From Gracilinema caldarium DSM 7334 (GTDB taxonomy: Bacteria; Spirochaetota; Spirochaetia; Treponematales; Breznakiellaceae): 64,000 nucleotides of DNA. The first letter of the stretch is position 1. The number at the start of each line of letters is the position of its first letter. The notes beneath the pieces are model-generated. The model did no database searches and was not told where the DNA came from. It was given only the letters and a program-made list of their open reading frames with translations. Both the position numbers and the translations under genes were made by a program. Below, piece after piece: positions 1 through 16,524 of the stretch. The stretch covers positions 2,232,001-2,296,000 of the forward strand of contig NC_015732.1 in the NCBI RefSeq assembly GCF_000219725.1, written 5' to 3'.

Positions 1-3000
1 ATTGTAACCTCACTAGAAGTTAAGTTGCTGTTGTATTCAGTTACGCCATATTTTACGGAGTAGCGTATAGTTCCATTTCCGCCGGTAGAATTTATCTTAA
101 AGTAAAGTTTATTGCCTCGAGCGGTAAAGTTCGTGGCACCATAACCATTTGAGATGGGGCTGGTCTGTTCGTTCGCATCAAGCACATCCCCGTCTCCATT
201 CAGATCAGTACCAAGTACGATGGATGTAATAATTGGCTTATGATTGGCCACATAGGCATTGGTCGAACCGCTCACATTATTCCCCGCAAAGTCGTAGGCT
301 ACATAGTGAACTTCTACCTTGCCATCTGCTACTAAGGTTGAATTGAACTGGGCCGCCCATTGGTAAGATCCTCCGCTAATGGTAAGCCACTCTGCATAGC
401 CGTCCTTATCACCAGCAGAACCGCTGTCGTTACCATCTTCCAGGCGGTTATCAATAACAATTCGGTAATCATCGTAAGTAGGATCATTAAGATCAAGGAC
501 TCCGCTAAAGGGAAGCGTTGCAACTCCGGTTCCTTTAAGACGAAGTACACTCGTACCCTGTTGCAGGTAGACCACTACCTGCTTAATGCCGGAGATCACG
601 CCTGTATCCTTCACCGTACCTTGGACTTCTGCCTGGCTCCCAATGATTTCTGTGCCAGCCGTATAGGTCAGATTCGTGGGCTGAATATTATCCACATTAA
701 AACTGAGACTCTGGATACTGTGGAAACCGCTCGTATCGATGGCATCAAAGGCTACAGCCATAATTCCAGATGAATTGGGGAAGAGCCCTGCTTCAGTTGT
801 ATTAATCGGGACTTCGATCCGGTAGGTCTGGTAGCCCGCCACATAGCCAGGTTCTCCGCTATTCACCAGTACTGCCCGGGGTCCGCCAGCAGGGGCTCCA
901 ATTAGTTCCTGACTGGAAATTCGGGGACCTTCGTGCTTAAAGATGATACTCTGCAAGCCGCTTTCGTCCCGTACATAACCAGTGATAGTAAAACTTCCAC
1001 CCACGGTACTATTCGTTTCATGGGAGAGGTCAGCGTATTGCGGTACCGTCTTATCAAAGGTGATGGTCCGGATTACTTCGATTCCGGGGATTCCATCGCC
1101 AGGAGTAGTCTTATAGTCCCAGGCCCGTACCTTAAATTTGATGGTCTTCGTTGTTGCGGTGCCCGTTGGGTTGAATTCTCCATAGAGATTGATGGTCTGG
1201 TACCAGCTTGTGGTTCCATTCACCACATACCAGGCAGTAGTGGAACTATCATTTTCATCTACCGAGGGCGGGTTAAAGCCAGAGATACTGGGCCACTTAT
1301 CATCCACGTCGGTAAAGTCCCCATCGTTGTTTATATCAAAGGCAATCTGAACCTTCCAGATGGACTGTCCGTCCTGGGCAATACCAAAGATCCGTTTGTA
1401 ACCACCAACCGTAGCACCATCGTCGGGATCCAAAATAGTTACCTCAGGCCGGTCACGGTTGGGATCAATTTCCAGGGTATAGGAGGATACATAGGCAATA
1501 TTTCCAGTCCCAGACAAACCTGCGGTATCCTCCGCCCGGATATATACTTTCATCCGCCAAATGTTAAGCCATGTTTCACCAGCATCCTGAATACCATCCC
1601 CATCAGTGTCTCCAATATCAACCGCATAGGTGGTATTGGCATAGGCATTGATGTTATTGAAGGTATAGGACCAGCTTACCGTTCCAGTAGCAGGATACCA
1701 GGGGCTACCCTCATAGTTCGTTTCGTTTACAGTCTTACCAATTCCTATTTTAATATTCCGAACTTGAGTCGTAGCATCTTCCGCACTTCCCCGGATGGTT
1801 ACCTTACCGTAGACACTGCTTAATTCCACAGGATCGATGATGGACACCACAGGTCCCGTAGTATCTACCACAACAGTTCGGCTCACCAGTGTTGTCCGAC
1901 CCGCCGCGTCGGTAATACGGGCATATATAGTTCGTGTCCCGTCTGGTATAGTAGTGAAGGTATAAGACCAGGTACCACTGATACTGCCTGAACCATTCGA
2001 CATGGTAGCAAGGACAGTACCACTGGTAAAGTCGGTAGAATCGATTTTAAGTTCTACCTTTGATACACCATTTTCATCTCCGTAGGTTCCTGTGAACACG
2101 AGTTCACTGGCCTTAAGTTTGCTGTTTGCATCAGGGGCAGTGAAGGTGCCATCAGGGGCTTCCCGGTCAACCTTAAAGGTAGCGGCAGAACTCAATCCCG
2201 TAATAGCGGGACTTGAGGTATCGGTAACCCGGACAATGAGGGTATAGGTACCATCATTTGCTCCAAGGTCGTAGTTCCAGTTCGCCGTAGTACCCCATCC
2301 TCCTGTGGGCGCTGTAAGGCTTATCCAGCTTATACCATTATCGGTACTGACCTCGACAGATGCAATTCCATCATCATCGCTGGCAGTTCCATAGACCTTT
2401 GAATCAGAAAGGAACGTATTTTGTTGGGTAGTAAAGCTTATTTGAGGCACATCGGTACTCTGATCTATGCGGAAGGTCCGATCAACATTGGTGTTATTAC
2501 CTGCCACATCGGTTACAATGAGTCTAAGGGTTATTTCATAGAGGCTGCCGCTTATAAGGGTTGCGTAGGTAGTCTCATCATAATTTCGGGTATCAAAGCT
2601 GAGGGTCCACTCGGTAGTGCCGGTAGGTGAACCAAGATTCGCAACCTCAGCACCACCCTTCACAATGGCAAGCCGAAGGGCCTGAACACCATAGTTATCG
2701 GTACTGGTCCCTGAAAGGGTGATGATGTTGTTAGTTGTGCTTCCTACTCCAGGGCTGGTAAAGCTTCCTGTAGGGGCAGTCCGGTCTACCGTATAGGCAT
2801 AGCTTTCCTGCCGTTTATTGCCCGCATTATCTTCTGTCTCGAGGGTAACCTGATAGATACCGGTACCACTTGCAGTGGGGATAAGGTTGGTATTAAAGGA
2901 AGTACTTGGGGTATTGGGATTCGTAAGAGTACAGGGGGTCCAGTTTACCACCACTGTAGCACCATCTTTAACGACCTTATATCGAACCGCTGCTACCGTA

Positions 3001-6000
3001 CCAGTTGTATCAGTAGCAGTTCCGCTTACCATGAAATCTGCGTTTCGATACCCTGTCGTTGCAGGACTAATACCACTTATGGTTGGAGCACCCGCATCCT
3101 GGGTAAAGGCAATGGTTTTGGTGTTAACCTTTCCGTTAATATCGGATATCTTAATCTGCAGGATCTTTGCACCATCAATACTGTTAGTAAAGGAAAAACT
3201 ACTGAGGGTCTTACTGGTACTGGAACCAGAAAGGTTTGAAGCGGGTATCTGGGTCCAGTCAGGGGACCAGGTAGTTCCATTATCTGCACTAAGCCGATAG
3301 TAAAGTGTCTCAGAATTAAGCCCATCATCATCGGTAAGGGTACCGCTAATGGTGATGGTTTGACTTGCTACGGTAGCACCTTCAGCGGGACTACCAATGG
3401 TAAGTTCCGGTTTATCCGTGTCCTGATCTACCCTGATGGTATAGGTGGCTATACCACTGTTTCCAGCCTTATCGATGCCCCTGACCTCTACGGTTAGATC
3501 GGCTTTATCAGAGTATGCAGTTGTATCAACTGTAAACGTAAAGGTCGTGTAGGGATCGGATCCCACCGGTTGCCATGAACCACCACCAACCCGATAGAAA
3601 AGAGATCCAAGGCCATTGGTGTCGCTGGCAGATCCGGAAAAGGTCATAAGGCCATTTCCATAGACTGTCCCACTCAGATTGATGTACGGCGCAGGTTGAT
3701 TAAAACTTACTACCGGTGATGTAGTATCAATGGTGATTGTTTTTGTTACCGATGAGGGCTTATTTGCTTTATCGAATACAGTGAAACGATACTCGTAAAT
3801 GCCATCGGATAGTCCCGTGATATTTCGGTTATAGTTCCAATCGCCGGTTCCACTGTTGTACTCAGCAGTTCCAATATCGGTAAAGTTTATATTACCGGGC
3901 TTTTTCTCAGCCACCGTTATGTGATCCACCAGGTAATCATCACTTGCAGTCCCGGTAAAGGTTATTGCAGCATTAGCCAGGTTCCCCGAAGGGGTATTCA
4001 AAGTAATTACTGGGGTATTTTGATCAATTCCAAAGATCAATTCTGTTTGGTCAGAAATATTGCCAGCCTTATCGACAGCTTTTACAAAGAGCTTCTTTTC
4101 ACCGACGCCAAGACCAGTCAGATTTATTGTATCACTCCAACTTTCCTTCCCATTGGCAGGGGTCCAGCTCCCTAGATCTGCAGGTGGTGTAAAACCTGTG
4201 ACTGGTCCAATAACATAGTACACAGTACCAATACCCGCAGAGCCCACATCGCTTGCGGTACCTTTAATTTCATAGGTAGATCCGAAAAGCCATGTATTAC
4301 CAGGATTCGTTATGCTTGGGGCAACGGGCTTTTGGGTATCCCTGCTTACCTTACGTACTACACTGGTGCTCCGATTGGCCACATCGGTAACTGTTATGGT
4401 GTATATAAACGACCCTTCTTCAGGTAATGTAATGTTAGCGGCAGACCAAGTTTTCGTAGTAGTACCTGAACCTAAGGTCACTGGTATATCAACTGTAGTT
4501 GTACCCCCTTCTTTTTTCTGGGTAATAGAAACCGAAGCTACTCCATTGGTATCAACGGCAGTTCCACCAAGGGAAAAACTTGAAGTACGGTATTCGGTAG
4601 TATCATCGTTAAACACAGAACCATCAATTGTAATATTTGTGATAGTAGGTACATTCTGATCTACCATTAGGGTTATACTTTTTACAGAGCTTAGGTTCCC
4701 CGCATTGTCAATCGCTTGGGCTTCAATAGTGTGAAGGCCTTCACTTAATCCACTATCATCGCCTGCACCGTCCGTATCTAAATCGAGGGTAGCAAGCCAA
4801 TTGGTAGTACCTAGCACATCCTCTTGCCAGGTTCCTCCATCAACTCGATAGCGAATTTTTTGTATGCCACTACCTCCGGTACTGTCACTGCTTGTACCGG
4901 CAACTGTAACAGTTAGTCCGGCAACAAAGGAACCAGGATTAGTAATTGATACTGTTGGTGCTATAGTATCAATCCATACCGTTACAGCACTGCTCTGATT
5001 TTTTCGCCCAAACTTATCCGTGGCCCGGACCACCAGGGTCTTTTCGCCGTTATTGCTTGCGGCGGTAATTGTCTTCGTCCAGGCTTTATTCTCACCAGGA
5101 TCTGCAGTTATGTTAAAGTTCTCCCAAGTGGTCCCGTTATCAAAGCTGAACTCGACCTTGCTGATACCGTTCGCATCTAGAACCGTACCCTGCACGGTGA
5201 AGTCCCCATTCCGGTAGGGGCCAACAGCATTATCGTCGGTCGCCTTCGGATTAAACACTACCGTTGGCACCGCGGTATCATAGGCAAACCATATCGGCGT
5301 CATGGATGCATTGTGTTCGCCATCAGCTGTATCCGCTACATCAATATAAAAACGGTAGGTGCCTTCAGATAGAACACTTACGTCTGGATCACTTATATCT
5401 AAAGAAAAGCTCTTAGTAAGATTAGAACCAGCGAGATCAAGGCTTATTGCTTCACCTGAATCGGTAAAGTCTCCATCCTTATTTTTATCTATATACAACG
5501 TCGCAGTATCAGGTAGCCCGTCGTCATCCGTAATGGTTCCAGAGATCTTTCCGCCCGAAACTAGAAGATTCTTAATAGTAATCGGATTAGTTGTAGTGTC
5601 TCTAATTTTATCTTCCGTTATTACAGTCGGGTCCACCGACGTAAAGGTTACCACCGGCTTATCCGTACTCTGGTCTACCACAAACTGCTGGGCTGCGGCA
5701 TGTCCTTCGTTCCCCGCCTTATCCTTCGCCACTACCCACAGGTAGTAGGTTGTACCATCGGTCAAGGTCGTAGTGTCGATACTCTGCCCGGCAAGCACCT
5801 GCACAATGGCTCCACCTACCGTCGCATCATAGGCCGGCGCATTGCTGCCATTGGTACTGATGAAATATTTCACGCCCTCAACACCATAGAGGTCCCCGGC
5901 TATGGCATTAAAGGTAACAGTTTTATTCACCTTGTTTGCTGTAGCATATTTATTAAAACTAGTAATTTCCACATTGGGCGGGGTGGTGTCATAATATACA

Positions 6001-7577
6001 GAACGGAGTAACGTTGCCGTTTTCCCGCCTACTGTTGTAAGTACTGCCTGGTATTTATACAATCCCTCCGTTGCTACCCCATAAGGTAAAGATCCACTTT
6101 TTTTATTAGTAAAGTTTGAAGCAGGAAGACCAGCAGTAATCGTTTCATTCGGGGTTGATGGGAACAGCTCACTTCCCTTTGCCTGATAAATTTCTATTTT
6201 TGCAATCTGTGTTGAGTGACTGCCATCAAAACTCATGGTAAAAGGAGCATTCCTAAACATGTTATTTGCATCAATGCTGGTTTCTTCGAAATAAGGAGCT
6301 TCAGCATCGATCATAAGTTCGAAGAAATTGGTATGGCCTGTAGTATTCTGATCTGTTTTTGCATACATCTTTAACTTATATTTTGCTGGTGGCAAATCTG
6401 AACCTGCGTTATCGACGAGTGCAAAAGAAAAGTTTACCGAATTGCCAATAGAAAGCAAGGTAACATGGGCATCATTTCCTAAAAGGGTACTGATGAGATG
6501 TTCATTATAGTCATAAATTTCTATCTTTATTGAATCTGCATCATATTTATCGATAGCGCCGGTGTCTGCAGGAGGCGTAACAATACCGCTCACCTTGGAT
6601 TTTGGAGGTAGCAGATTTTTTTCCGCATCTTTTAAAACATCAATATTAGTGAACTGAAAATCAATCTGTGGTTCAGCTTCATAGATAAAGCTTCCAAAAT
6701 TGGGGACGGAGGATAATCGTTTTTTAGATAAAGTTGCTGCAGTTATACCCGATGTTGCACCTTTAATCCCAAGCTGATCAATTTTACCAATCTCATCCAT
6801 GGCGGGGAAATAGGCATTGGGGTTTACATCATTTTTTGATTCCAATATATCAACACGGTGATAGTAATAGGTATTACTATTGCCTGCGGCATCAGTAACA
6901 GCAACATTATAATAATAGGTTTCGTTGTCTTGGAGACCAGCTATTTTATCTTTCAGTTCAAACCGAGTAGTCCAGGTATTGGTCCCATCTGCAGTTACTG
7001 GTCCAGCAAGGATAGAACCATCTGCTTTTAACAATGATACTTTTACGTCTTTCACAGTGGTAGCATCATACACTTCACCTTTAACATCAATTGCATCGGT
7101 GTATTGGGATCCAGTTTTGCTCAAGGGGCTTGTAACTAATACGGTGGGAGGAATCGTATCGATTATTACTGAAGTAAACGTATTCTGGGTTTTACCTTTT
7201 CCATCAGAAACGGTTACATCAATAGTATATTGTCCATCATTGAGTGCATCTGAGGGGTCCGATGCTTTTTTTGTCGTAAAGGTGCTACTCCAATTGCCAT
7301 TTGTATTCGGTGTAACCGTTGTAGTTTTAACTACGTTTCCTGAGGTATCTTTTACACGGATGGTAAGGCTTGTAATACCATTATCATCGCTTGCTGTACC
7401 GGATACGGAAAAGGATTCTCCATTAACATAGCTATTCGGTGTAGGTGCTATAATTTTAGCTAAGGGCGGTTCCAAGTCTACCTTAGCGCCAAGCCCTGCA
7501 GTAAAAAGATCACAGCTGGCAATAAAGAGTGCCAACATGGCCAGCGAAGTGAAAGAAAGAACTTTACGTACATGCAT
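1..7577 (-). CDS. Giant Ig-like repeat surface lipoprotein (3' end beyond window)
   Basis: The reading frame is open from ATG 7577 to base 1, at least 2525 residues, with no stop at either end checked; the C-terminus lies outside the window. The N-terminus is a lipoprotein signal (MHVRKVLSFTSLAMLALF then IASC, with Cys 21 as likely lipidation site). The rest is a chain of about 22 Ig-like beta-sandwich repeats of roughly 90-120 residues. Repeats begin with a linker such as VDRTAP, IDTTSP or VDQNVP and contain a core like G.A.D..G......V. Four acidic loops resemble calcium-binding DxNxDGD motifs. The family (bacterial Ig-like/Big-type proteins) serves as adhesins or stalks, so outer-membrane anchoring and surface exposure are inferred. 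No enzymatic domain is visible. A sigma-54-type promoter lies just upstream. Seen: frame, lipobox, repeats. Inferred: adhesion role. Confidence 0.9.
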   Translation of the reverse strand, partial: MHVRKVLSFTSLAMLALFIASCDLFTAGLGAKVDLEPPLAKIIAPTPNSYVNGESFSVSGTASDDNGITSLTIRVKDTSGNVVKTTTVTPNTNGNWSSTFTTKKASDPSDALNDGQYTIDVTVSDGKGKTQNTFTSVIIDTIPPTVLVTSPLSKTGSQYTDAIDVKGEVYDATTVKDVKVSLLKADGSILAGPVTADGTNTWTTRFELKDKIAGLQDNETYYYNVAVTDAAGNSNTYYYHRVDILESKNDVNPNAYFPAMDEIGKIDQLGIKGATSGITAATLSKKRLSSVPNFGSFIYEAEPQIDFQFTNIDVLKDAEKNLLPPKSKVSGIVTPPADTGAIDKYDADSIKIEIYDYNEHLISTLLGNDAHVTLLSIGNSVNFSFALVDNAGSDLPPAKYKLKMYAKTDQNTTGHTNFFELMIDAEAPYFEETSIDANNMFRNAPFTMSFDGSHSTQIAKIEIYQAKGSELFPSTPNETITAGLPASNFTNKKSGSLPYGVATEGLYKYQAVLTTVGGKTATLLRSVYYDTTPPNVEITSFNKYATANKVNKTVTFNAIAGDLYGVEGVKYFISTNGSNAPAYDATVGGAIVQVLAGQSIDTTTLTDGTTYYLWVVAKDKAGNEGHAAAQQFVVDQSTDKPVVTFTSVDPTVITEDKIRDTTTNPITIKNLLVSGGKISGTITDDDGLPDTATLYIDKNKDGDFTDSGEAISLDLAGSNLTKSFSLDISDPDVSVLSEGTYRFYIDVADTADGEHNASMTPIWFAYDTAVPTVVFNPKATDDNAVGPYRNGDFTVQGTVLDANGISKVEFSFDNGTTWENFNITADPGENKAWTKTITAASNNGEKTLVVRATDKFGRKNQSSAVTVWIDTIAPTVSITNPGSFVAGLTVTVAGTSSDSTGGSGIQKIRYRVDGGTWQEDVLGTTNWLATLDLDTDGAGDDSGLSEGLHTIEAQAIDNAGNLSSVKSITLMVDQNVPTITNITIDGSVFNDDTTEYRTSSFSLGGTAVDTNGVASVSITQKKEGGTTTVDIPVTLGSGTTTKTWSAANITLPEEGSFIYTITVTDVANRSTSVVRKVSRDTQKPVAPSITNPGNTWLFGSTYEIKGTASDVGSAGIGTVYYVIGPVTGFTPPADLGSWTPANGKESWSDTINLTGLGVGEKKLFVKAVDKAGNISDQTELIFGIDQNTPVITLNTPSGNLANAAITFTGTASDDYLVDHITVAEKKPGNINFTDIGTAEYNSGTGDWNYNRNITGLSDGIYEYRFTVFDKANKPSSVTKTITIDTTSPVVSFNQPAPYINLSGTVYGNGLMTFSGSASDTNGLGSLFYRVGGGSWQPVGSDPYTTFTFTVDTTAYSDKADLTVEVRGIDKAGNSGIATYTIRVDQDTDKPELTIGSPAEGATVASQTITISGTLTDDDGLNSETLYYRLSADNGTTWSPDWTQIPASNLSGSSTSKTLSSFSFTNSIDGAKILQIKISDINGKVNTKTIAFTQDAGAPTISGISPATTGYRNADFMVSGTATDTTGTVAAVRYKVVKDGATVVVNWTPCTLTNPNTPSTSFNTNLIPTASGTGIYQVTLETEDNAGNKRQESYAYTVDRTAPTGSFTSPGVGSTTNNIITLSGTSTDNYGVQALRLAIVKGGAEVANLGSPTGTTEWTLSFDTRNYDETTYATLISGSLYEITLRLIVTDVAGNNTNVDRTFRIDQSTDVPQISFTTQQNTFLSDSKVYGTASDDDGIASVEVSTDNGISWISLTAPTGGWGTTANWNYDLGANDGTYTLIVRVTDTSSPAITGLSSAATFKVDREAPDGTFTAPDANSKLKASELVFTGTYGDENGVSKVELKIDSTDFTSGTVLATMSNGSGSISGTWSYTFTTIPDGTRTIYARITDAAGRTTLVSRTVVVDTTGPVVSIIDPVELSSVYGKVTIRGSAEDATTQVRNIKIGIGKTVNETNYEGSPWYPATGTVSWSYTFNNINAYANTTYAVDIGDTDGDGIQDAGETWLNIWRMKVYIRAEDTAGLSGTGNIAYVSSYTLEIDPNRDRPEVTILDPDDGATVGGYKRIFGIAQDGQSIWKVQIAFDINNDGDFTDVDDKWPSISGFNPPSVDENDSSTTAWYVVNGTTSWYQTINLYGEFNPTGTATTKTIKFKVRAWDYKTTPGDGIPGIEVIRTITFDKTVPQYADLSHETNSTVGGSFTITGYVRDESGLQSIIFKHEGPRISSQELIGAPAGGPRAVLVNSGEPGYVAGYQTYRIEVPINTTEAGLFPNSSGIMAVAFDAIDTSGFHSIQSLSFNVDNIQPTNLTYTAGTEIIGSQAEVQGTVKDTGVISGIKQVVVYLQQGTSVLRLKGTGVATLPFSGVLDLNDPTYDDYRIVIDNRLEDGNDSGSAGDKDGYAEWLTISGGSYQWAAQFNSTLVADGKVEVHYVAYDFAGNNVSGSTNAYVANHKPIITSIVLGTDLNGDGDVLDANEQTSPISNGYGATNFTARGNKLYFKINSTGGNGTIRYSVKYGVTEYNSNLTSSEVT
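3..7480 (-). repeat. Tandem Ig-like domain repeats (about 22 copies)
   Basis: Protein-level repeats inside the giant lipoprotein. Boundaries are marked by (V/I/F)D(T/R/Q/K)xxP linkers, for example IDTIPP, YDTAVP, IDTIAP, SRDTQKP, VDRTAP, VDREAP and FDKTVP. The DNA copies are well diverged, so this is an old array and not a recently expanded satellite. A subset carries VDQSTDKP or IDPNRDRP linkers, with two or three extra residues, which may be a second sub-type of repeat. Confidence 0.8.
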
Positions 7578-7610
7578 ATAATCTCCCAATAAAGACACCT
7601 ACTAATACAT

Positions 7611-7627
7611 AGCAATATTCGTGCCAA
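7611..7627 (-). promoter_or_regulatory. Sigma-54 (-24/-12) promoter for the giant lipoprotein
   Basis: Read on the minus strand this is TTGGCACGAATATTGCT, which matches the RpoN consensus (YTGGCACGrNNNTTGCW) with the correct GG to GC spacing. Transcription would start near base 7600, about 23 bases before the ATG at 7577, leaving room for the leader with GGGAG. The match is in an intergenic gap on the coding strand, which makes chance unlikely. No enhancer-binding-protein site was recognised. Confidence 0.8.
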
Positions 7628-7779
7628 TAATAAAAAACAAGAATCATGCTAAAGTAATGTTATTTATTATATCGGAAGATTTTACAAAAATGTAAAAATT
7701 AACAAGTTTAGAGAATTTTATGAATATTCGACAATATTGGCGAAATTTAACCAACAGGGCGAAATGCTAACCTTAGTCC

Positions 7780-9123
7780 TTATGGACGTTTTTCGTCTCT
7801 GTTAGAAAGATTGGTTTTCGTAAATACAAATCGCGTCGAAAGTGCATCCAGAGCATCCCGAAAGGCTTTTTCTGCACTGGCAACCTGCCAGGTAGAATAC
7901 AGAACATCTGCATAACCATTCAGCATATCAATTCTAGACTTTTGTCCAAAATGAGCAAGGGTCTCTATTTGTTTATATACTATTTTTGCTGATTCATACG
8001 CTGTTATCGTTTTCTTCCAACTGTCTAAAAGTCGATTGAGTTCTCGTACCTTTTGTTCATATTCCTGTAAAACTGTCTGACTAGTAAGCTGAACTTTTTT
8101 TTCCTTAATCGCAGCTAAATTTGTTGCAATCCGAGCTTCTTCCCAATAAAGCAAATCCATCGGTACTTTTAGCGAAGCCGAAGCTGACCAGCTCTTAGCA
8201 GTTGGTGATAGGGTACCTTTTAAGGTAATATCAGGTTTTGGTTGAGCAGTCCGTGCATCAATCTGACTCGATTCAGCATCCAAAGTGGCTGTTACATAGG
8301 TATCGTTTATTGAAAGATAGGTCGACCTATCCATAATGTCATGTAAAAGGAATTCGGATATTTCTGGTTCAGAATTACTAAGTTGTTCTAAATCAGGAAT
8401 TTCCGATTCATCAATACCTAAATATTGGGCTATGGATTGATGAACGGTTTGATACTTTGCAACCGCTGTTTCATATTCTAACCGAGCTTGGGTCATGGTA
8501 ACTAGAGAATCGAGCAATTCTGCCTGAGAAGCATCCCCCTGAGTAGAAAGAACCTGGGTTTGCTCATATTCGGCTGTAGCGGCTTGTAATTCCGCTTCTC
8601 TATAGGCTGCTTCCTTTTTACTCACTAACAAAGACCGTAGGAGAGCTCGGAAGTCTAATACCGCTGTTCGGAGGGTACTCCTATAGGTCTGAAGGCTCGA
8701 GCGATAGTCTATGGTTGCCTTCGAATTTGATTGGGCTAAGGGAGTAATTGTAGCGGAAAGATTCGATGTAAGGTTTCCCTCATCGGTAAAGGTACTTGTT
8801 GCGCCTAAAGCAAACCAGTACGTCAAAGGAACTACAAGATTTCCTCCAAAGGTCGTTCCTTCAGTTGTACTCGTTTCGGTAGTAGTACTAAAAGCATCAG
8901 AAATAGTTGTCGTTAATTCTAATGAACTGGAACGCCACGCTGGCTCTGCCTTAAGCTGAGCCGCTTTATTTTGTATAGTTAATTCAGCTTTGGCAACATC
9001 AAGATTTTGTGCAACAGCCCGTGATACAAGATCGTCCAATGTATCAAAGGCAAAAAGTTCTGGAATTTGAAGTAAAAAGAAACTAAGCAAAAGGACAATA
9101 CCCAGCTGTATGTTTATCTTCAT
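7780..9123 (-). CDS. TolC-family outer membrane efflux protein
   Basis: 447 residues with a signal peptide (MKINIQLGIVLLLSFFLLQI, then a probable cleavage near LFAF). The body is rich in Ala, Gln, Glu, Leu and Thr and predicted to be long helices, with the two-fold repeated architecture of the outer membrane factor family (residues about 30-230 and 240-440). The family forms a trimeric channel across the outer membrane that docks on periplasmic adaptors. It is the last gene of the adaptor-ATPase-permease-permease operon and starts 3 bases after the stop of the preceding permease; its ribosome site (AAAGGAATAGG) lies in the end of that permease gene. It probably provides the exit duct for this pump and possibly for the RND pump at 36373-40541, which has no outer membrane gene beside it. 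Confidence 0.85.
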   Translation of the reverse strand: MKINIQLGIVLLLSFFLLQIPELFAFDTLDDLVSRAVAQNLDVAKAELTIQNKAAQLKAEPAWRSSSLELTTTISDAFSTTTETSTTEGTTFGGNLVVPLTYWFALGATSTFTDEGNLTSNLSATITPLAQSNSKATIDYRSSLQTYRSTLRTAVLDFRALLRSLLVSKKEAAYREAELQAATAEYEQTQVLSTQGDASQAELLDSLVTMTQARLEYETAVAKYQTVHQSIAQYLGIDESEIPDLEQLSNSEPEISEFLLHDIMDRSTYLSINDTYVTATLDAESSQIDARTAQPKPDITLKGTLSPTAKSWSASASLKVPMDLLYWEEARIATNLAAIKEKKVQLTSQTVLQEYEQKVRELNRLLDSWKKTITAYESAKIVYKQIETLAHFGQKSRIDMLNGYADVLYSTWQVASAEKAFRDALDALSTRFVFTKTNLSNRDEKRP

Positions 9124-9126
9124 AAC

Positions 9127-10428
9127 CTATTCCTTTAAGCCATCGACAATTGATGCAGAAGCGGACTTCATTGCCGGAAGGAAGGAGAACAATCCCGAAA
9201 GCAATACCGCAATCACCGGAGCCAAGAGACTTCGCGGCTCAAAGAGCGATGCGGTCAAATCGGTACCATTCATCTGAAGTGCTTCAAGAAAAGGATGTAA
9301 GTAATTCTTACTAAAACCTTGTATTACAAGGGACAGACCAAAACCAATGATACCCCCCAAAACAGTGAGTTTAAGGCTATTTATTATAAGTTCCAGGGTA
9401 ACCTTGAAAATGGTATTTCCCAACGCTCGCTTTATAGCCATTTCCCGTCGTCGTTCTGCAGCTTCAGCCATCATGCTTGAAACAACACCAAAGGCTGCGA
9501 CAATTAAAATGGCAAGACCAAAGAGTTCTGTAATAAGGGACAATCCCTGAAGGGAAGACCTAACCTGTTCCACTGACGAGGCTCCTCCCCGTTCTAGAGA
9601 CCCCTCCCATACAGCGATTTTTACAGTCTCTAGTTTTTTTGTCTGACTCAGGTAACTGCGTAACCCTGCGGTAATCCCTTCCAGGGGACGGACATCTACC
9701 GTGCGCCCTACAAAGGTCCTGGCAAAGGGCATGATGGGGATATCAGCAGGGAACATGACCGTATAGGGTACAATATAATCGGGCACTCCATAGACATCTC
9801 GCTCAAAAGCGGTCACATCCCTAAAAACTCCTACAATAGTATAGGAATCATAGGAAGATTCAACCCGATTTGGGGTGCCTCCAACCTGCCGTTGCACGAA
9901 AATATTCCGGTCTCCCCGAAAGGTTTTTCCTACCGCATGCTGACTGGAACCATAAAGAAGTGTAGCAGCCCGCTCAGACAATACGGCTACCCGGGATCGA
10001 TTGGTAACATCAGAGGCAGCAAAGAAACTACCCGCCGCAAACCTGAGACCCATGATATCTGCATATTGTTCATCGGAACCTAGCACAGTACCAGGACGAT
10101 AGGCAACTCCGGAAACCTCTATTTGCCGCCAGGGCAATTGATTAATAATGGAAACTGCCTTAAACCCCACATTTGCATCCAAGAAAGTCTGTTTATCTTG
10201 GGGAATCAAAACAAGGGGAGTTTGCCAATCAAGGGAAGCATCGGCTTCCAGGTTAGCATTGGCTATGATAACTCTCCGTCCACTACTCTGAACTGCTACC
10301 GTAACAAGCCGGTCCAATTGGGCAGAAATAGCATAGGAAAGGGCTAACGCAGCGGTTCCTACAATAACCACTAAAACGAGAAGAAACCGACGGAACGTAT
10401 GACCGGAAATTGATAAAGACATATTCAT
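9127..10428 (-). CDS. MacB-like ABC permease (FtsX fold), second copy
   Basis: 433 residues. One N-terminal membrane helix (about 10-33) is followed by a large periplasmic MacB core domain (about 35-270) and an FtsX domain with three helices at the C-terminus (about 295-425). The segment AEAAERRREMAIKRALG is the cytosolic coupling region typical of MacB and LolC/E permeases. There is no fused ATPase; the separate ATPase at 11801 would serve it. Start chosen at 10428 because AAGGAAG lies 7 bases upstream. Together with the permease at 10440 it would form a heterodimer moving a hydrophobic or peptide substrate from inner membrane or periplasm to the TolC duct. Substrate unknown. Confidence 0.85.
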   Translation of the reverse strand: MNMSLSISGHTFRRFLLVLVVIVGTAALALSYAISAQLDRLVTVAVQSSGRRVIIANANLEADASLDWQTPLVLIPQDKQTFLDANVGFKAVSIINQLPWRQIEVSGVAYRPGTVLGSDEQYADIMGLRFAAGSFFAASDVTNRSRVAVLSERAATLLYGSSQHAVGKTFRGDRNIFVQRQVGGTPNRVESSYDSYTIVGVFRDVTAFERDVYGVPDYIVPYTVMFPADIPIMPFARTFVGRTVDVRPLEGITAGLRSYLSQTKKLETVKIAVWEGSLERGGASSVEQVRSSLQGLSLITELFGLAILIVAAFGVVSSMMAEAAERRREMAIKRALGNTIFKVTLELIINSLKLTVLGGIIGFGLSLVIQGFSKNYLHPFLEALQMNGTDLTASLFEPRSLLAPVIAVLLSGLFSFLPAMKSASASIVDGLKE

Positions 10429-10439
10429 GGAATTCTTCC

Positions 10440-11819
10440 TTATTCCTCACGTAGTGCATCGACAATGTCTGTATTGGCAGCCGTAAAAGCCGCAGGAACA
10501 GCAAAAAGACAGGCAATGACGATTGCCATAACCGAAACCTCGAAAGAAAGATCAAATCGTTGCGGTAATACCATCCCCCGAAGCTGACTTTTTTCCAAAA
10601 TACTTTGCACAATTTTGGCAATTGGAAAAGAAAGGACAAAACCAATTACCGAACCTATCATTCCCAAAATAAGGGTTTCTATAAGGGTCTGTATCAGCAT
10701 ACTCCTTGATGTAGCACCCAGAGACCGCTGAATCGCAATAGATCGGGTTCTTCGGGATACCCGGCCAATCATCAAATTAAAAATATTTATCGATGCTGCT
10801 ATTCCAACAGCACTGGCCATGAGGGCTAAAAGAGAAAGGATTTTAAGCCGTTTATCCAAATCTTTTTTAATTTTACTAATCTGAGTTTCGGCGACGACCT
10901 TATTTGCACCATATAGTTTAGTATAGAAAGCCTCTAAATTACGGGACACCATCGCAATATCCGCTCCCTTCCGGGCGGTAAAGGAGAGTTCCCCTACGCG
11001 ACCAAAAAAGATCGCATTCGCCCCTCCACCGGCACCACCAGTCCGAGCTGTGCCTTCTCTCGTTGGCACGAATATTAATTCATCAAAAGAAACCGGTAAG
11101 CCCTCGGTACTGTAAGCATAGGGGACAAGCACACCAACAATTGTATATATTCTACCATTTAATCGAATTTTCTTATTCAGTACCTGTTTATCAGCATAAA
11201 GTTTTTTAGCCAACTCAGCTCCAACGACCGCTACCGCATTACTCTGGGTTACATCGCGGTCATCAAAAAGGATTCCTTCCTGAACCTTAAGCTCATAGGC
11301 AGTAAAAAAGGAAGCACTCGCCATATATCCTTGAACCTGTTCTAGAAGGGGGGTATCAACAACCTGCATGGCAGTATCCTGGTTTACACCCATCAGCTCA
11401 GGGGGCTCAAAGCCTCCTACCCCACCGGGACCAGCTCCAGGTCCTGAACCTGCAGCCGCACCGCCACCAAACGTAGTTGTGGTAAACCTCATATACCGTG
11501 CCTGATAGGACGCAATGATATCAGGATTATCTTCGAGAATCCTGGGCACATCCTGGAGATTAAAACGCACCGGCTCACTGGCAGTTGTATCAATTCGTAC
11601 CGCCGCTTCACCGGTCCCCATAGCCTGGAACTGTCCCTTAACCGTAATTTGCCGGGCCTGAGGTTGTTGAGTAAATCGATCAAATACCTTATTGTAAGAA
11701 CCGATAAGTGAGATAATCCCCGCAAGAATGGCTGTCGCCAAAGCAATACCCATAACAGCCAAAAGAGAGTCGCCCCAATGGATCCTGATTTGTCGCCAAC
11801 TCAATTTAAATTTGTCCAT
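10440..11819 (-). CDS. MacB-like ABC permease (FtsX fold), first copy
   Basis: 459 residues with the same plan as its neighbour: N-terminal helix (about 17-40), periplasmic core (about 45-330) and three C-terminal helices. Coupling motif: SRRTRSIAIQRSLGA. A Gly/Ala-rich stretch (near residues 120-135, GGGAAAGSGPGAGPGG) and a second Gly-rich stretch near residue 260 look like flexible loops in the periplasmic core. The gene overlaps the ATPase gene by 19 bases, implying coupled translation. The two permeases are clearly diverged, so the transporter is a heterodimer. Confidence 0.85.
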   Translation of the reverse strand: MDKFKLSWRQIRIHWGDSLLAVMGIALATAILAGIISLIGSYNKVFDRFTQQPQARQITVKGQFQAMGTGEAAVRIDTTASEPVRFNLQDVPRILEDNPDIIASYQARYMRFTTTTFGGGAAAGSGPGAGPGGVGGFEPPELMGVNQDTAMQVVDTPLLEQVQGYMASASFFTAYELKVQEGILFDDRDVTQSNAVAVVGAELAKKLYADKQVLNKKIRLNGRIYTIVGVLVPYAYSTEGLPVSFDELIFVPTREGTARTGGAGGGANAIFFGRVGELSFTARKGADIAMVSRNLEAFYTKLYGANKVVAETQISKIKKDLDKRLKILSLLALMASAVGIAASINIFNLMIGRVSRRTRSIAIQRSLGATSRSMLIQTLIETLILGMIGSVIGFVLSFPIAKIVQSILEKSQLRGMVLPQRFDLSFEVSVMAIVIACLFAVPAAFTAANTDIVDALREE

Positions 11820-12496
11820 GGCTCACGCTCCACAATCTGTTCGATACCTCCATCCTTAAGTTTCACCGTTCGAGATCCCTGGGCCCCTAATGTTTCATCA
11901 TGGGTTACCATAACAATGGTCATACCTTCCTGATTCAGCTGATGCAGAATTTCCATAATTTCAGCGCCTTGATCAGAAGGCAAGTTACCTGTCGGTTCGT
12001 CAGCTAATAAAAAACCCGGATCATTGGCTAATGAACGGGCTATGGCAACCCGCTGCTGCTCACCACCCGATAGGGTAGTTGGCCGAGCATGAAGCCTGTG
12101 GGAAAGCCCCATCCGTTCAAGAAGCTCCTGAGCTCGTAGTTTCCGTTGCGTTAAAGAGACCCCAGCATATCCCATAGGAAGCATCACATTTTCCATTGCA
12201 GTAAGTTCTGGCAAAAGATGAAATTTCTGAAATACAAAACCAAAATGCCTGTTTCGAATTCGGGAAAGTTCAACATCCCGAAGCCCCATTACATCTCGCC
12301 CTTCAATACGGTAAACACCATCGGATGGCGAATCTAATAATCCAATAATATGCAGCAAGGTGGATTTTCCAGAACCAGAAGGTCCCATAATGGTCACAAA
12401 TTCACCCCGCTCAATATCCAAGTTGATGTTCCTCAGTCCCACCACTTGTCTTGTACCTGTATTCCAGGCCTTAGTAATATTGGATAACTGCAGCAT
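11801..12496 (-). CDS. ABC transporter ATPase, LolD/MacB family
   Basis: 231 residues, a single nucleotide-binding domain. Walker [10 protein letters not shown] lies at about residues 38-46, the signature is LSGGEQQR, Walker B is [11 protein letters not shown], and the switch histidine is in VMVTHDE. Length and motifs match the LolD/MacB/FtsE group that drives FtsX-fold permeases by mechanotransmission. It lies between the adaptor gene (79-base gap) and the two permeases (19-base overlap). The start at 12496 gives [11 protein letters not shown], a normal family N-terminus. Confidence 0.92.
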
Positions 12497-12575
12497 ACAA
12501 ACTCCTTCTCGTTACATATACGAGGCACAACATTCCAGACATTCAGATACTGTGCACCCCTCTGACGATACTTCT

Positions 12576-13883
12576 TTATTTAGTTTCTTCTACCGGGAAA
12601 GAATCCAGATGGATAAAATCACGATAGTCCGAAATAATGACCCGATCACCTTCATTAAGACCTGAAGTTACCTGAATATATGCTCCATCGGCCACACCAA
12701 ACTTTACGGTTGCTTTTTTAGCTACTCCATTAGAGACCACATAAACATTGCTATAGTTCCCACTGGATAGGTAGGGGCCCCGGGGTAACACCAGGGCATC
12801 TGTAATCGTTCCTGCAACAATTTCTCCAGACACAGAAGCTCCAATAGTAGGCTTTTCAGGTTTAGACTTAAAGGCTGCAGTAACTAGAACAACTGAGCCA
12901 GAAGAACTGGAAGAACTCGTAGCAGTAGGTGCAATGGTTTCTACCTGTGCGGGATAATTAGTTTCTCCAATGTATATAGTCACCGGTAGCCCCTTCGTTA
13001 TGGATCCTATTCTTGTCTCCGGCACATCCAGGGCGGCACGGCTATCACCAGCATTAGCCACCACTGCTAGTTCTTCATAGGCGCTTACAGTACCGCCAGA
13101 TTCTACCGAAAGACTGTAAACCGTGCCGCCCCGGCTCGTGCGAACCGTATAGGCGGTGATCTCATCTTTTAAGTCCCTAATATCCTTTTCTAAAATGGTA
13201 CGATCTGCCAAAGAATTTTTTAAATTCAACTGATAGTTTGCTTCAGCCTGATCTTGATTAATCTGAGCCTTAGCTAGAGTATCTTGAGCACTCTGTAATG
13301 TTAACTGTGCTGATAATAGATCCTGTTCAGAAGCAAGGCTTTTATCCTTTAATGCTTTAACTTTATCAAGTTCACGTTGAGCATCTTCTATAGATCGTTT
13401 CGCAGCGGCGATTTCTATAGCATACTGTTTACGGGTAAATTCCTGAATAACCTGAGATTGTTCAATTTGGTAGTTTAATTTTTCCAGAGATAATTGCTTA
13501 CTCTGTAATTGAGATTTCAGATCAGATGTTTTAATCTGAAGCAATACCTGCCCAGCGGCTACCTGATCACCTTCCTGTACATAGAGCTGATCGATAACCC
13601 CGTCTCCAGGGGAGGTGATAATCTCTTTTTTAGAAAGCTCTAGAACACCCGAAACAGAAACAATATCCCGTATAGTTTTCTTTTCTACTGCTGTTATAGA
13701 GAGATTTTTTCCTACAACAGTAGTAGTCTGCGGCTTTACAGCATTAAAACTCGGGAGTGCCAAACCTGTAATACCAATAACTATGACAGTCCCCAGGATG
13801 ATAAACCAGAGAATCGTGGATTTTCGACCAGTTCCTGGTGACTGATGCGATTCATCCTGAAAGATAGGACTTATATTTGGCAT
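12576..13883 (-). CDS. MacA/HlyD-type periplasmic adaptor (membrane fusion protein)
   Basis: 435 residues. A short cytosolic N-terminus is followed by a membrane helix (about 24-46), a half lipoyl domain (DGVIDQLYVQEGDQVAAGQ), a long helical hairpin with coiled-coil character (about 110-215), the second lipoyl half (TSRGGTVYSLSVESGG) and beta-barrel/membrane-proximal domains. A serine-rich stretch (near residue 315) is unusual but sits in a loop. The protein bridges the permeases and TolC. AAGGAG precedes the ATG, and it is the first gene of the five-gene operon. The gene is divergent from a histidine kinase, so regulation by that system is plausible. Confidence 0.88.
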   Translation of the reverse strand: MPNISPIFQDESHQSPGTGRKSTILWFIILGTVIVIGITGLALPSFNAVKPQTTTVVGKNLSITAVEKKTIRDIVSVSGVLELSKKEIITSPGDGVIDQLYVQEGDQVAAGQVLLQIKTSDLKSQLQSKQLSLEKLNYQIEQSQVIQEFTRKQYAIEIAAAKRSIEDAQRELDKVKALKDKSLASEQDLLSAQLTLQSAQDTLAKAQINQDQAEANYQLNLKNSLADRTILEKDIRDLKDEITAYTVRTSRGGTVYSLSVESGGTVSAYEELAVVANAGDSRAALDVPETRIGSITKGLPVTIYIGETNYPAQVETIAPTATSSSSSSGSVVLVTAAFKSKPEKPTIGASVSGEIVAGTITDALVLPRGPYLSSGNYSNVYVVSNGVAKKATVKFGVADGAYIQVTSGLNEGDRVIISDYRDFIHLDSFPVEETK

Positions 13884-13997
13884 AGGTTTTTTCTCCTTAC
13901 GGCATTAACAATACAACAATGTTTCGGCGGTATGGTTAAGGAGATGTAAAACCCCATGTTAAAATTGTAAAAAGAGAGGACACCGGCTCATCAATCT

Positions 13998-14027
13998 ATG
14001 ACAGAAGTTCACGTCCTTTGTTACAAT
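13998..14027 (+). promoter_or_regulatory. Sigma-70 promoter placing +1 at the histidine kinase ATG
   Basis: ATGACA (13998-14003), an 18-base spacer and TACAAT (14022-14027) are followed by exactly six bases (AAAACT) and ATG 14034. Transcription would begin at or within a base of the start codon, giving a leaderless mRNA. There is no Shine-Dalgarno sequence before 14034. The -35 box overlaps an in-frame upstream ATG at 13998, which argues against that upstream start. Confidence 0.6.
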
Positions 14028-14033
14028 AAAACT

Positions 14034-15764
14034 ATGAGGTTTCTTAAACGATATTGGTCTCTGATTATAACCGGAGCTCTCATACCATTACTTATGCTGC
14101 TAGCGATCAATCAGCTCCAATGGGTGCAGGATCTGGGCATCCGTGAACGATACCGGCTGATACAGGGACTTCATGCAACGGCCACTCAGTTAGGAAACGC
14201 CATTCAAAATGAACTGGGTATTATTCCCATTGTTTTTGATATGGATGGAGACGAGATCTCCCAAAGCCTTGCCAAGGGGCACACCGATGAATTTTCAAAA
14301 CGGTGGGAAGCCTGGCAAAGCTATGCACAGAGCCCGGATATCATTTCTGACCTTTATATCCTTTATATTGATGAACGGACAGCTTCTGCTGTTCCAGTGG
14401 TTTGGCAATGGAAAGACAGCAGCTTTCTTCAGGTAACGATTGACATACAAGATCCATCTCTTTTCATGTTTCCCCTTCGCCCCGGAGATTCAGGCAAACG
14501 CTTTACAATGCTGATCAGGGTTAATAATGAAATATTGGAACAAAAACTGATTCCAGCCCTGGCAGAGCAATATCTGTTTGGAAAAAATGATTATTATTTC
14601 AGAATTGTTGATACAGTAGAAAAGAACGTGGTCTATGAATCTTCAAACACGGATTCTCATATGCTTTTTGCGAATCCCGACATACGGTATCCGCTTCTGA
14701 AACCGGATTATTTATTTCTTTTTAATAGTTTACCCGATATGAGAGATCCTGGTTTTGAGACAGTACCAGCAATGACGATCTTGCAAATGCGCCGACAAAG
14801 TGCAAGGAATCAGGAAAATCCAGACCGTGTAGCAGAAGTATTTTTTGACCGGCGGCCACCGGAACAACGGGACAGAACTGAAAGAGCCCGTTGGGTTCTT
14901 GAAGCGGTTCACAAGTCGGGTTCCCTCAAGGCAGTGGTGAACATGTTCATAGTTCGAAATACAATCATCAGTCTGGGAACCCTGGTCCTTTTAGCCTTTG
15001 CATTAATTGCCCTTACTATTGCCGTCCGAAGGAATCAGGAACTAGCAGAACGTCAACAGGACTTTATTGCTACCGTTACCCACGAACTTAAAACACCGGT
15101 GGCGGTGATTGGCTCCGGAGCAGATAACCTTGCATCTGGGATCATTACTGACCCCCAGAGGACACAACAATACGGTACCATGATCCTGGAAGAAAGCAAA
15201 AAATTGGCCACCATGGTGGACCGCTTCTTAATCTATTCCAGACTTTCCAGCCATCGGCCGCTGGAGTTCACCAGATTGAACCTGCAGGACCTGATTCATT
15301 CAGTGTTAGATCTCTATAAACAACAGCTTGTAGAAGCTGAGTTCAGAGTAGAATGTATTACCCCCCATCCGGTATATGTTAATGGTGATATGCAAACCCT
15401 GAGTCTGGCCCTGGGAAATCTCATTAGTAACGCCATAAAACATGCCCGTGAAGGATTATTTCTGGGTATAGACCTCAGGAAAGAGAATCATACATGGGCA
15501 ATTATTTCGGTCCGAGATCATGGTCCGGGAATTAGCCGGCAGGAACGGAAACATATTTTTGAGGCTTTTTACCGAGGTTCCGTTGCAAAGTCTAAGCAGA
15601 TTCCAGGAAGTGGCCTTGGGCTCAACGTAGTCCGCAGAATTATCGAAACCCATGGTGGTACAGTGAGCTGTGAAATTTTTGGTGAACTTGGAACTATGTT
15701 TATCATCAAACTACCCATACCAGATCACATCAGCCTGCTCAGTAAAGAGGCACCCCATGAATAA
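14034..15764 (+). CDS. Sensor histidine kinase (no HAMP domain)
   Basis: 576 residues from ATG 14034 (an in-frame ATG at 13998 is possible). A membrane helix at about 8-28 and a second at about 313-333 flank a periplasmic sensor region of some 280 residues without a recognised fold. The kinase follows directly: HisKA with His 350 in VTHELKTPVAVIG, then the ATP-binding domain with N-box NLISNAIKHA, DHGPGIS and GSGLGLNV. No HAMP module is present between helix 2 and HisKA, only a short coiled linker. It overlaps the response-regulator gene by 8 bases. Signal unknown; an envelope or drug stress linked to the divergent pump is an inference. Confidence 0.88.
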   Translation: MRFLKRYWSLIITGALIPLLMLLAINQLQWVQDLGIRERYRLIQGLHATATQLGNAIQNELGIIPIVFDMDGDEISQSLAKGHTDEFSKRWEAWQSYAQSPDIISDLYILYIDERTASAVPVVWQWKDSSFLQVTIDIQDPSLFMFPLRPGDSGKRFTMLIRVNNEILEQKLIPALAEQYLFGKNDYYFRIVDTVEKNVVYESSNTDSHMLFANPDIRYPLLKPDYLFLFNSLPDMRDPGFETVPAMTILQMRRQSARNQENPDRVAEVFFDRRPPEQRDRTERARWVLEAVHKSGSLKAVVNMFIVRNTIISLGTLVLLAFALIALTIAVRRNQELAERQQDFIATVTHELKTPVAVIGSGADNLASGIITDPQRTQQYGTMILEESKKLATMVDRFLIYSRLSSHRPLEFTRLNLQDLIHSVLDLYKQQLVEAEFRVECITPHPVYVNGDMQTLSLALGNLISNAIKHAREGLFLGIDLRKENHTWAIISVRDHGPGISRQERKHIFEAFYRGSVAKSKQIPGSGLGLNVVRRIIETHGGTVSCEIFGELGTMFIIKLPIPDHISLLSKEAPHE

Positions 15765-16524
15765 TCGTAATAGACTACTCCTTATAGAGGATGAACCAGG
15801 ACTCATTCTGACGATCTCAGATAGACTCATAGCTGAGGGGTATTCCTGCGACACTGCCAAAGATGGATGTTCCGGTTTTAGTAAGGCAAAAACTGGTTTC
15901 TATGATCTTATCATCCTGGATGTAATGCTACCAGAAAAAAGCGGTTACGATATTTGCCGGGATCTTCGGGCATTAGGGCTAAATACCCCTATTTTAATGC
16001 TCACCGCCCGCAGTCAGATTATCGACCGGGTGCTGGGACTTAAGCTGGGGGCTGATGATTACCTTTGTAAACCCTTCGACATGAACGAACTACTCGCCAG
16101 AATCGAAGCACTCTTGCGAAGGTCTCAAAATCACCTCAATGAAATAGTATATAACCAAAACCAAAAAGGACAGGCTGACCCAGACTACATTGCAGGCGTC
16201 CGCAGCAATCAAGATAGACCAGGTGGAGTAGAAACCTATACCCATTTTACCGTCGATTTTCAGAAGGGGACCGTAGAAAGTCGGGGTGTTATACAAAACC
16301 TGTCCGCTCAGGAATATAAATTGCTTGCGTTTCTAACCCGTCATCCCGATGAAATTATCAGTCGGGACACGCTACTCGACGAGGTCTGGGGTTATGAAAC
16401 CGAAACCACAACCCGCACCGTCGATGTCCACATCGCATGGCTCCGTAAAAAAATCGGCGACACTGAACCGGTTCCCTATCACATCCAGACCGTCCGGGGA
16501 CTTGGGTATCGGTTTGTGCCATAA
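15757..16524 (+). CDS. OmpR/PhoB-family response regulator
   Basis: 255 residues from ATG 15757, which has AAAGAGG upstream and starts inside the kinase stop region. Receiver domain: acidic pair ED at 11-12, phospho-acceptor Asp 55 in IILDVMLPEKSG, switch Thr in MLTARS and Lys in CKPFD. The C-terminal winged helix carries the recognition segment TRTVDVHIAWLRKKIG and ends QTVRGLGYRF. The linker of about 50 residues between domains is longer than usual. It is the partner of the kinase, and likely targets include the divergent MacA operon promoter and its own. Confidence 0.93.
   Translation: MNNRNRLLLIEDEPGLILTISDRLIAEGYSCDTAKDGCSGFSKAKTGFYDLIILDVMLPEKSGYDICRDLRALGLNTPILMLTARSQIIDRVLGLKLGADDYLCKPFDMNELLARIEALLRRSQNHLNEIVYNQNQKGQADPDYIAGVRSNQDRPGGVETYTHFTVDFQKGTVESRGVIQNLSAQEYKLLAFLTRHPDEIISRDTLLDEVWGYETETTTRTVDVHIAWLRKKIGDTEPVPYHIQTVRGLGYRFVP

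Follow-up and report, generated by a model that had tools for sequence, protein, structure and literature searches.

Surface proteins with repeated Ig-like domains are represented in Leptospira by the Lig proteins. Sigma-54, in turn, has been described as a controller of the bacterial exterior, lipoproteins included, in a survey where spirochaetes average 1-2 activators (Francke et al. 2011, PMC3162934). To the Leptospira EbpA-sigma-54 pathway, direct control of two putative lipoprotein genes and of amtB is ascribed (Hu et al. 2017, reviewed in PMC12655853); EbpA carries GAF domains, and amtB is tied to nitrogen and to survival in water. In the Rrp2-RpoN-RpoS pathway of Borrelia burgdorferi, lipoprotein genes are reached through RpoS (PMC3037356, PMC2940757). 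Given these two precedents, the view of the initial annotation that such a pairing is not known from spirochaetes needs correcting. A search of open-licence papers for sigma-54 together with adhesins and Ig-like domains found no such pairing, an absence that is weak evidence.

The locus described here belongs to Spirochaeta caldaria H1T (now Treponema or Gracilinema caldaria), a hot-spring spirochaete that is free-living and ranked at biosafety level 1 (PMC3739177). Its genome consists of one contig (C1) of 3,239,340 bp, and the window, that is, the whole stretch of 64,000 nucleotides analysed, corresponds to C1:2232001-2296000. Similar to the EbpA pathway, sigma-54 and an activator are predicted from the sequence to act on a lipoprotein gene of a spirochaete; unlike EbpA, the candidate activator is an orphan response regulator whose operator occurs at essentially one giant gene. 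As with Borrelia Rrp2-RpoN, an NtrC-type response regulator and sigma-54 are predicted to stand over a surface lipoprotein, but here the -24/-12 element and the upstream operator sit on the giant gene itself. Compared to the survey average, this genome has ten full-strength matches to the sigma-54 activator domain, and one of the ten is linked to just one surface protein. Relative to known spirochaete sigma-54 control, then, the dedicated activator, the tandem operator and the giant target look new. Taken as a whole, it is quite likely that a giant outer-envelope lipoprotein is made on demand from a sigma-54 promoter, through an NtrC-family activator acting at palindromes (Table 1).

Table 1. 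Features of the giant lipoprotein locus, in window coordinates
Feature	Position	Strand	Remarks
Giant lipoprotein gene, N-terminal 2525 of 3372 codons	3..7577	-	continues left to C1:2229459
Ribosome-binding site GGGAG	7583..7587	-	from sequence; same position in four Gracilinema genomes
Predicted sigma-54 -24/-12 promoter TGGCACGAATATTGCT	7611..7626	-	consensus match, conserved in relatives
AT block ATATAATAAAT, possible bend or alternative -10	7662..7672	-	invariant in four Gracilinema species
Candidate activator site, proximal palindrome TTCGCCAATATTGTCGAA	7727..7744	-	10/10 to TTCGNC-N6-GNCGAA
Candidate activator site, distal degenerate copy TTCGCCCTGTTGGTTAAA	7746..7763	-	8/10; 19 bp upstream of proximal
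TolC-like outer membrane efflux protein gene	7780..9123	-	upstream of giant gene; Pfam OEP
MacAB-like exporter genes: two FtsX/MacB permeases, ATPase, HlyD-type adaptor	9127..13883	-	

The giant gene starts with an ATG at 7577. A lipoprotein of at least 2525 residues with about 22 Ig-like domains had been proposed, and both points are borne out: leftward extension gives 3372 amino acids in total, ending at C1:2229459, and an iterated HMM gives about 22-23 repeats. Twenty-two of them lie at residues 35-2544, with one further at 2618-2755 and weaker ones beyond, and Pfam recognizes multiple bacterial Ig-like domains among them (Big_7, E 5e-43; Big_13, E 7e-24). The translation begins with a signal peptide bearing the lipobox LFIASC-D with its cysteine, which predicts a lipoprotein, and the mature N-terminus carries C-x(2-8)-GLG directly after the lipidated cysteine, a signature common to the giants. 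Homologues of the N-terminal part were found in 50 of 298 relatives and those of the C-terminal domain in 20 of 99. The protein shares repeated Ig-like or related domains with the Lig and OmpL47 types of Leptospira; unlike OmpL47, it falls below the NCBIfam cut-off for that family (69.4 bits against 250), and its C-terminal domain is without a Pfam family. Its score for a separate domain model, NF047446, just equals the cut-off of 40 bits.

The conserved C-terminal domain comprises the last 600 residues, and a Pfam scan of the C-terminal 640 amino acids gave no match. A structural model made on an 88%-identical relative is all-beta and of low confidence (mean pLDDT 51, pTM 0.62), and Foldseek placed sialidases, a propeller lectin and other propellers on top, with low TM-scores; the domain may possibly adopt a propeller-like fold, which we take as a lead only. 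The same domain (L021:8462-10318) is 89% identical, and 76.5% identical as DNA, to a stretch of a metagenome-assembled genome from another family (L068:3235-5080, JAKPPT010000020.1), the likeness being far lower outside the domain. A horizontal exchange of this head domain with the JAKPPT010000020.1 lineage is probable, judging by these identities.

Regarding the promoter, the RpoN-type element TTGGCACGAATATTGCT at 7627-7611 of the minus strand is present as originally claimed and fits the consensus perfectly, with the -24 GG and -12 GC at the correct spacing, 34 bp upstream of the start codon of the giant gene. Its 16-base core is the sole zero-mismatch match to TGGCACNNNNNTTGCW within the window. 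Matches with two mismatches or fewer number 33 there, against 30 expected from shuffles; near-fits are thus no commoner than in shuffled sequence, and it is the perfect fit that matters, not their count. Transcription would be predicted to start near 7600, which gives a leader of some 23 nt with the GGGAG in it.

Over the whole genome there are 11 perfect sites, compared to none for a reversed-pattern control. Six stand shortly upstream of a start codon, three in 16S rRNA leaders and two within coding sequence. Besides the giant gene, the genic sites (C1:276885, 626790, 775398, 1019694 and 1242238; L010, L013, L014, L015 and L016) precede two hsp20 genes, a peroxiredoxin gene, a gene for an RpoD/RpoS-like sigma factor and one gene without Pfam or NCBIfam match; these promoters would suggest a stress-type regulon, with a step from sigma-54 to another sigma factor that recalls Borrelia. 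The peroxiredoxin gene has an activator gene on either side. In the three rRNA operon leaders (L011, L012 and L017, at 1501-1516), an identical sequence that fits the sigma-54 pattern perfectly, TGGCACGAAAGTTGCT, occurs some 190 bp ahead of the 16S gene and directly after a strong sigma-70-like promoter.

Each of the four Gracilinema species has the element, which precedes the lipid-accepting cysteine by 112-113 nt. When a fixed weight scheme was applied to the 280 nt upstream of 45 related giant genes, 16 of them showed a sigma-54 element, in 11 genera and three families of the order. The scores are bimodal, with the 16 positives at 14.9 or above and all others at 12.2 or below (maximum 16.9). 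The weights were chosen manually to follow the known consensus; the sixth position was widened to C or T after the first relatives had been seen, and the sites of G020, G018, G071 and G080 already stood out before this widening. Where a relative has only a draft genome, a contig end often interrupts the giant gene.

A different arrangement occurs in six genomes of the genus g69 (G098, G224, G095, G074, G239 and G230; loci L107, L109, L113, L117, L093 and L094), where the giant gene carries paired palindromes and a second pair but lacks an upstream sigma-54 element. Beside the second pair, a TGNTATATT-like sequence can be read that resembles an extended -10. The rpoN gene is kept in the five of these genomes that were within a test of 34, and partially in G239, and the activator clade described below occurs in all six. 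A promoter swap, in which the operators were retained and sigma-54 was replaced by a sigma-70 type, is a possible reading of these sequences.

The initial annotation considered the sigma-54 element the only obvious promoter. A sigma-70 scan upstream of the giant gene agrees with this in part, as it returned 2 candidates against 1.4 expected and no convincing rival; the invariant ATATAATAAAT block, however, leaves room for a second promoter. A sigma-70 promoter at this block could then provide basal transcription, with sigma-54 acting merely as a boost, as might be read from its invariance across four Gracilinema species, from the TATAAT it contains and from the extended -10-like TGNTATATT next to the operators of g69. 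Against this, the block is without a -35 hexamer at 16-18 bp spacing, and AT-rich stretches also lie upstream of the other sigma-54 promoters of this genome, so that it may serve DNA bending. On balance, the two-promoter arrangement is unlikely.

The preferred reading, a sigma-54 promoter worked by an upstream activator, finds its candidate operator in the two palindromes. The proximal one starts 118 bp before the -24 element, within the range of roughly 80-200 bp from the promoter used to define an activator site. The exact palindrome is unique in this genome and its near-matches are no commoner than control, and an operator common to the other sigma-54 genes was rejected on these counts. The giant genes of relatives carry the same palindrome, frequently as a near-perfect pair spaced 17-21 bp. 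It accompanies 12 of the 16 sigma-54-positive giants, 116-169 bp upstream of the -24 (with the outer bases changed in G077); the other four (G063, G068, G092 and G097) have the promoter and no clear palindrome. In G066 and G095, the two copies at the giant gene are the only exact ones of the genome. A strict-tandem search of 394 genomes gave matches in 10, against 0 for the control, and 8 of the 10 are directly upstream of a giant gene. The other two, one within a coding frame in G060 and one before another gene in G242 (C402), count against perfect specificity. From these comparisons, the palindromes TTCGNC-N6-GNCGAA are predicted to be the activator site.

The proposal also called for rpoN and enhancer-binding proteins, and both were found: rpoN is present as a single copy (E 1.1e-54), as it is in all 34 genomes tested, and there are ten activator-type genes. 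In four of these (L140, L142, L144 and L145) GAFTDA replaces GAFTGA in the sigma-54 contact loop. A pointer to the relevant activator comes from two relative genera in which an activator gene adjoins the giant gene: in G071, G080 and G236 the giant and a response-regulator gene point away from each other, with the operators in between, and G063 and G068 have an activator gene immediately before the giant, in the same orientation. Of the proteins encoded by the present genome, the one that matches the G071 activator best over its full length (51%, 441 bits; next 295 bits) is an orphan NtrC-type regulator, encoded at C1:2802182-2803552. By Pfam it combines a receiver, a sigma-54 AAA+ domain and a Fis HTH, as expected of an NtrC-type protein, with GSFTGA in the loop.

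In a maximum-likelihood tree, this regulator and the giant-adjoining activators fall into one clade of 29 members (support 100/99), outside which the nine other activators of the genome are placed, and the Fis-type helix of the clade has ER(R/H)(L/M)R(S/Y)R in common. The clade is present in the genomes of 16 of 16 giants with the sigma-54 element compared to 8 of 29 without it (Fisher p 1e-6 by genome and 1e-5 by genus, figures that overstate independence as the genomes are related). Conversely, those eight genomes have the activator clade and a giant gene without the element, and in G025 and G062 the activator is present and no giant was found. In this genome, the activator gene lies at a distance from the giant gene, and no cognate histidine kinase adjoins it. 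The sequence evidence predicts C1:2802182-2803552 as the candidate activator; rather than an evident example of the nitrogen, phage-shock or flagellar type first suggested, the likely one is an orphan NtrC/ZraR-like response regulator with a clade of its own.

The sigma-54 promoter could also be real and the palindromes belong to another regulator, for instance a repressor, while another of the ten activators acts. That the palindromes persist at g69 giants without a sigma-54 element, and that some sigma-54-bearing giants are without clear palindromes, would fit such an arrangement. It is nevertheless quite improbable, as a tandem of palindromes 116-169 bp upstream is how activator sites are normally laid out, and two genera have an activator gene next to the giant, with near-perfect tandem sites between both genes in G071 and G080. 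As for mere chance resemblance of the element, to which the two perfect sites inside coding sequence and the three in rRNA leaders might point, its probability is practically negligible, being contradicted by a sequence and position kept in 11 genera where at most 0.44 sites are expected among 45 genes (a bound taken from how often such sites occur over 1.74 million strand-bases of these loci).

Regarding the neighbouring genes, window positions 7780-16524 hold the MacAB-TolC-like exporter genes, plus a divergent kinase and an OmpR-type regulator. The TolC-like gene is beside the giant gene also in the other three Gracilinema species, and the exporter stays adjacent within this genus; that it serves the export of the giant protein is possible, if unsupported. 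On the 3' side, a 415-aa gene was considered as a conserved partner and discarded, having no relatives in the retrieved loci and no Pfam match. A chemoreceptor-like gene there (L021:3423-7039) is apparently interrupted by a DDE transposase gene (5025-6488).

Returning to control by sigma-54 and its own activator, the mode of action would be as follows. A kinase would phosphorylate the regulator C1:2802182-2803552, which would then bind one or two of the palindromes, about 118-137 bp upstream of the -24, and reach the sigma-54 polymerase through DNA looping, opening the promoter, so that the large protein would be produced solely on demand. Once exported and lipid-anchored, the protein would use its Ig string as a spacer, and the C-terminal head, possibly a beta-propeller, might attach to glycans or to other surfaces; the adhesin or stalk first suggested would be a putative role. 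Sequence shows the gene, its promoter, the palindromes, rpoN and the activator, as well as the conservation of all of these; from them we infer that the regulator binds DNA and activates by looping, and that the protein is exposed at the surface and has a binding role.

Sigma-54 control of the giant lipoprotein, as first proposed, is well supported by sequence comparison, owing to the presence of rpoN, the conserved element and position, the upstream operator and the adjoining activators in two genera. Counted against the whole reading are the distance of the activator gene, the lack of an adjacent kinase, the degenerate distal palindrome in Gracilinema, the cases of promoter without palindrome, activator without element or activator without giant, and the invariant TATAAT-containing block, which leaves room for a sigma-70 promoter. 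A broader proposal, that of a one-regulator, one-target switch in which an orphan NtrC-type regulator has its operator essentially at one giant gene across several families, the promoter having been swapped to a sigma-70 type in g69, is tentative and falls a little short of an even chance.

These observations define a family of giant lipoproteins by the start of the mature protein, which they share (C...GLG), and by a C-terminal domain that Pfam does not yet cover, and name a complete predicted circuit for a giant surface protein, from sigma factor, activator, operator and promoter to target. They concern non-pathogenic spirochaetes; regulation has been little studied outside Borrelia and Leptospira. 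In addition, the relatives offer a natural series for one gene, with sigma-54 and operator, operator without sigma-54, or neither, which would help in studying how a surface structure that is costly in energy acquires or sheds all-or-none control.
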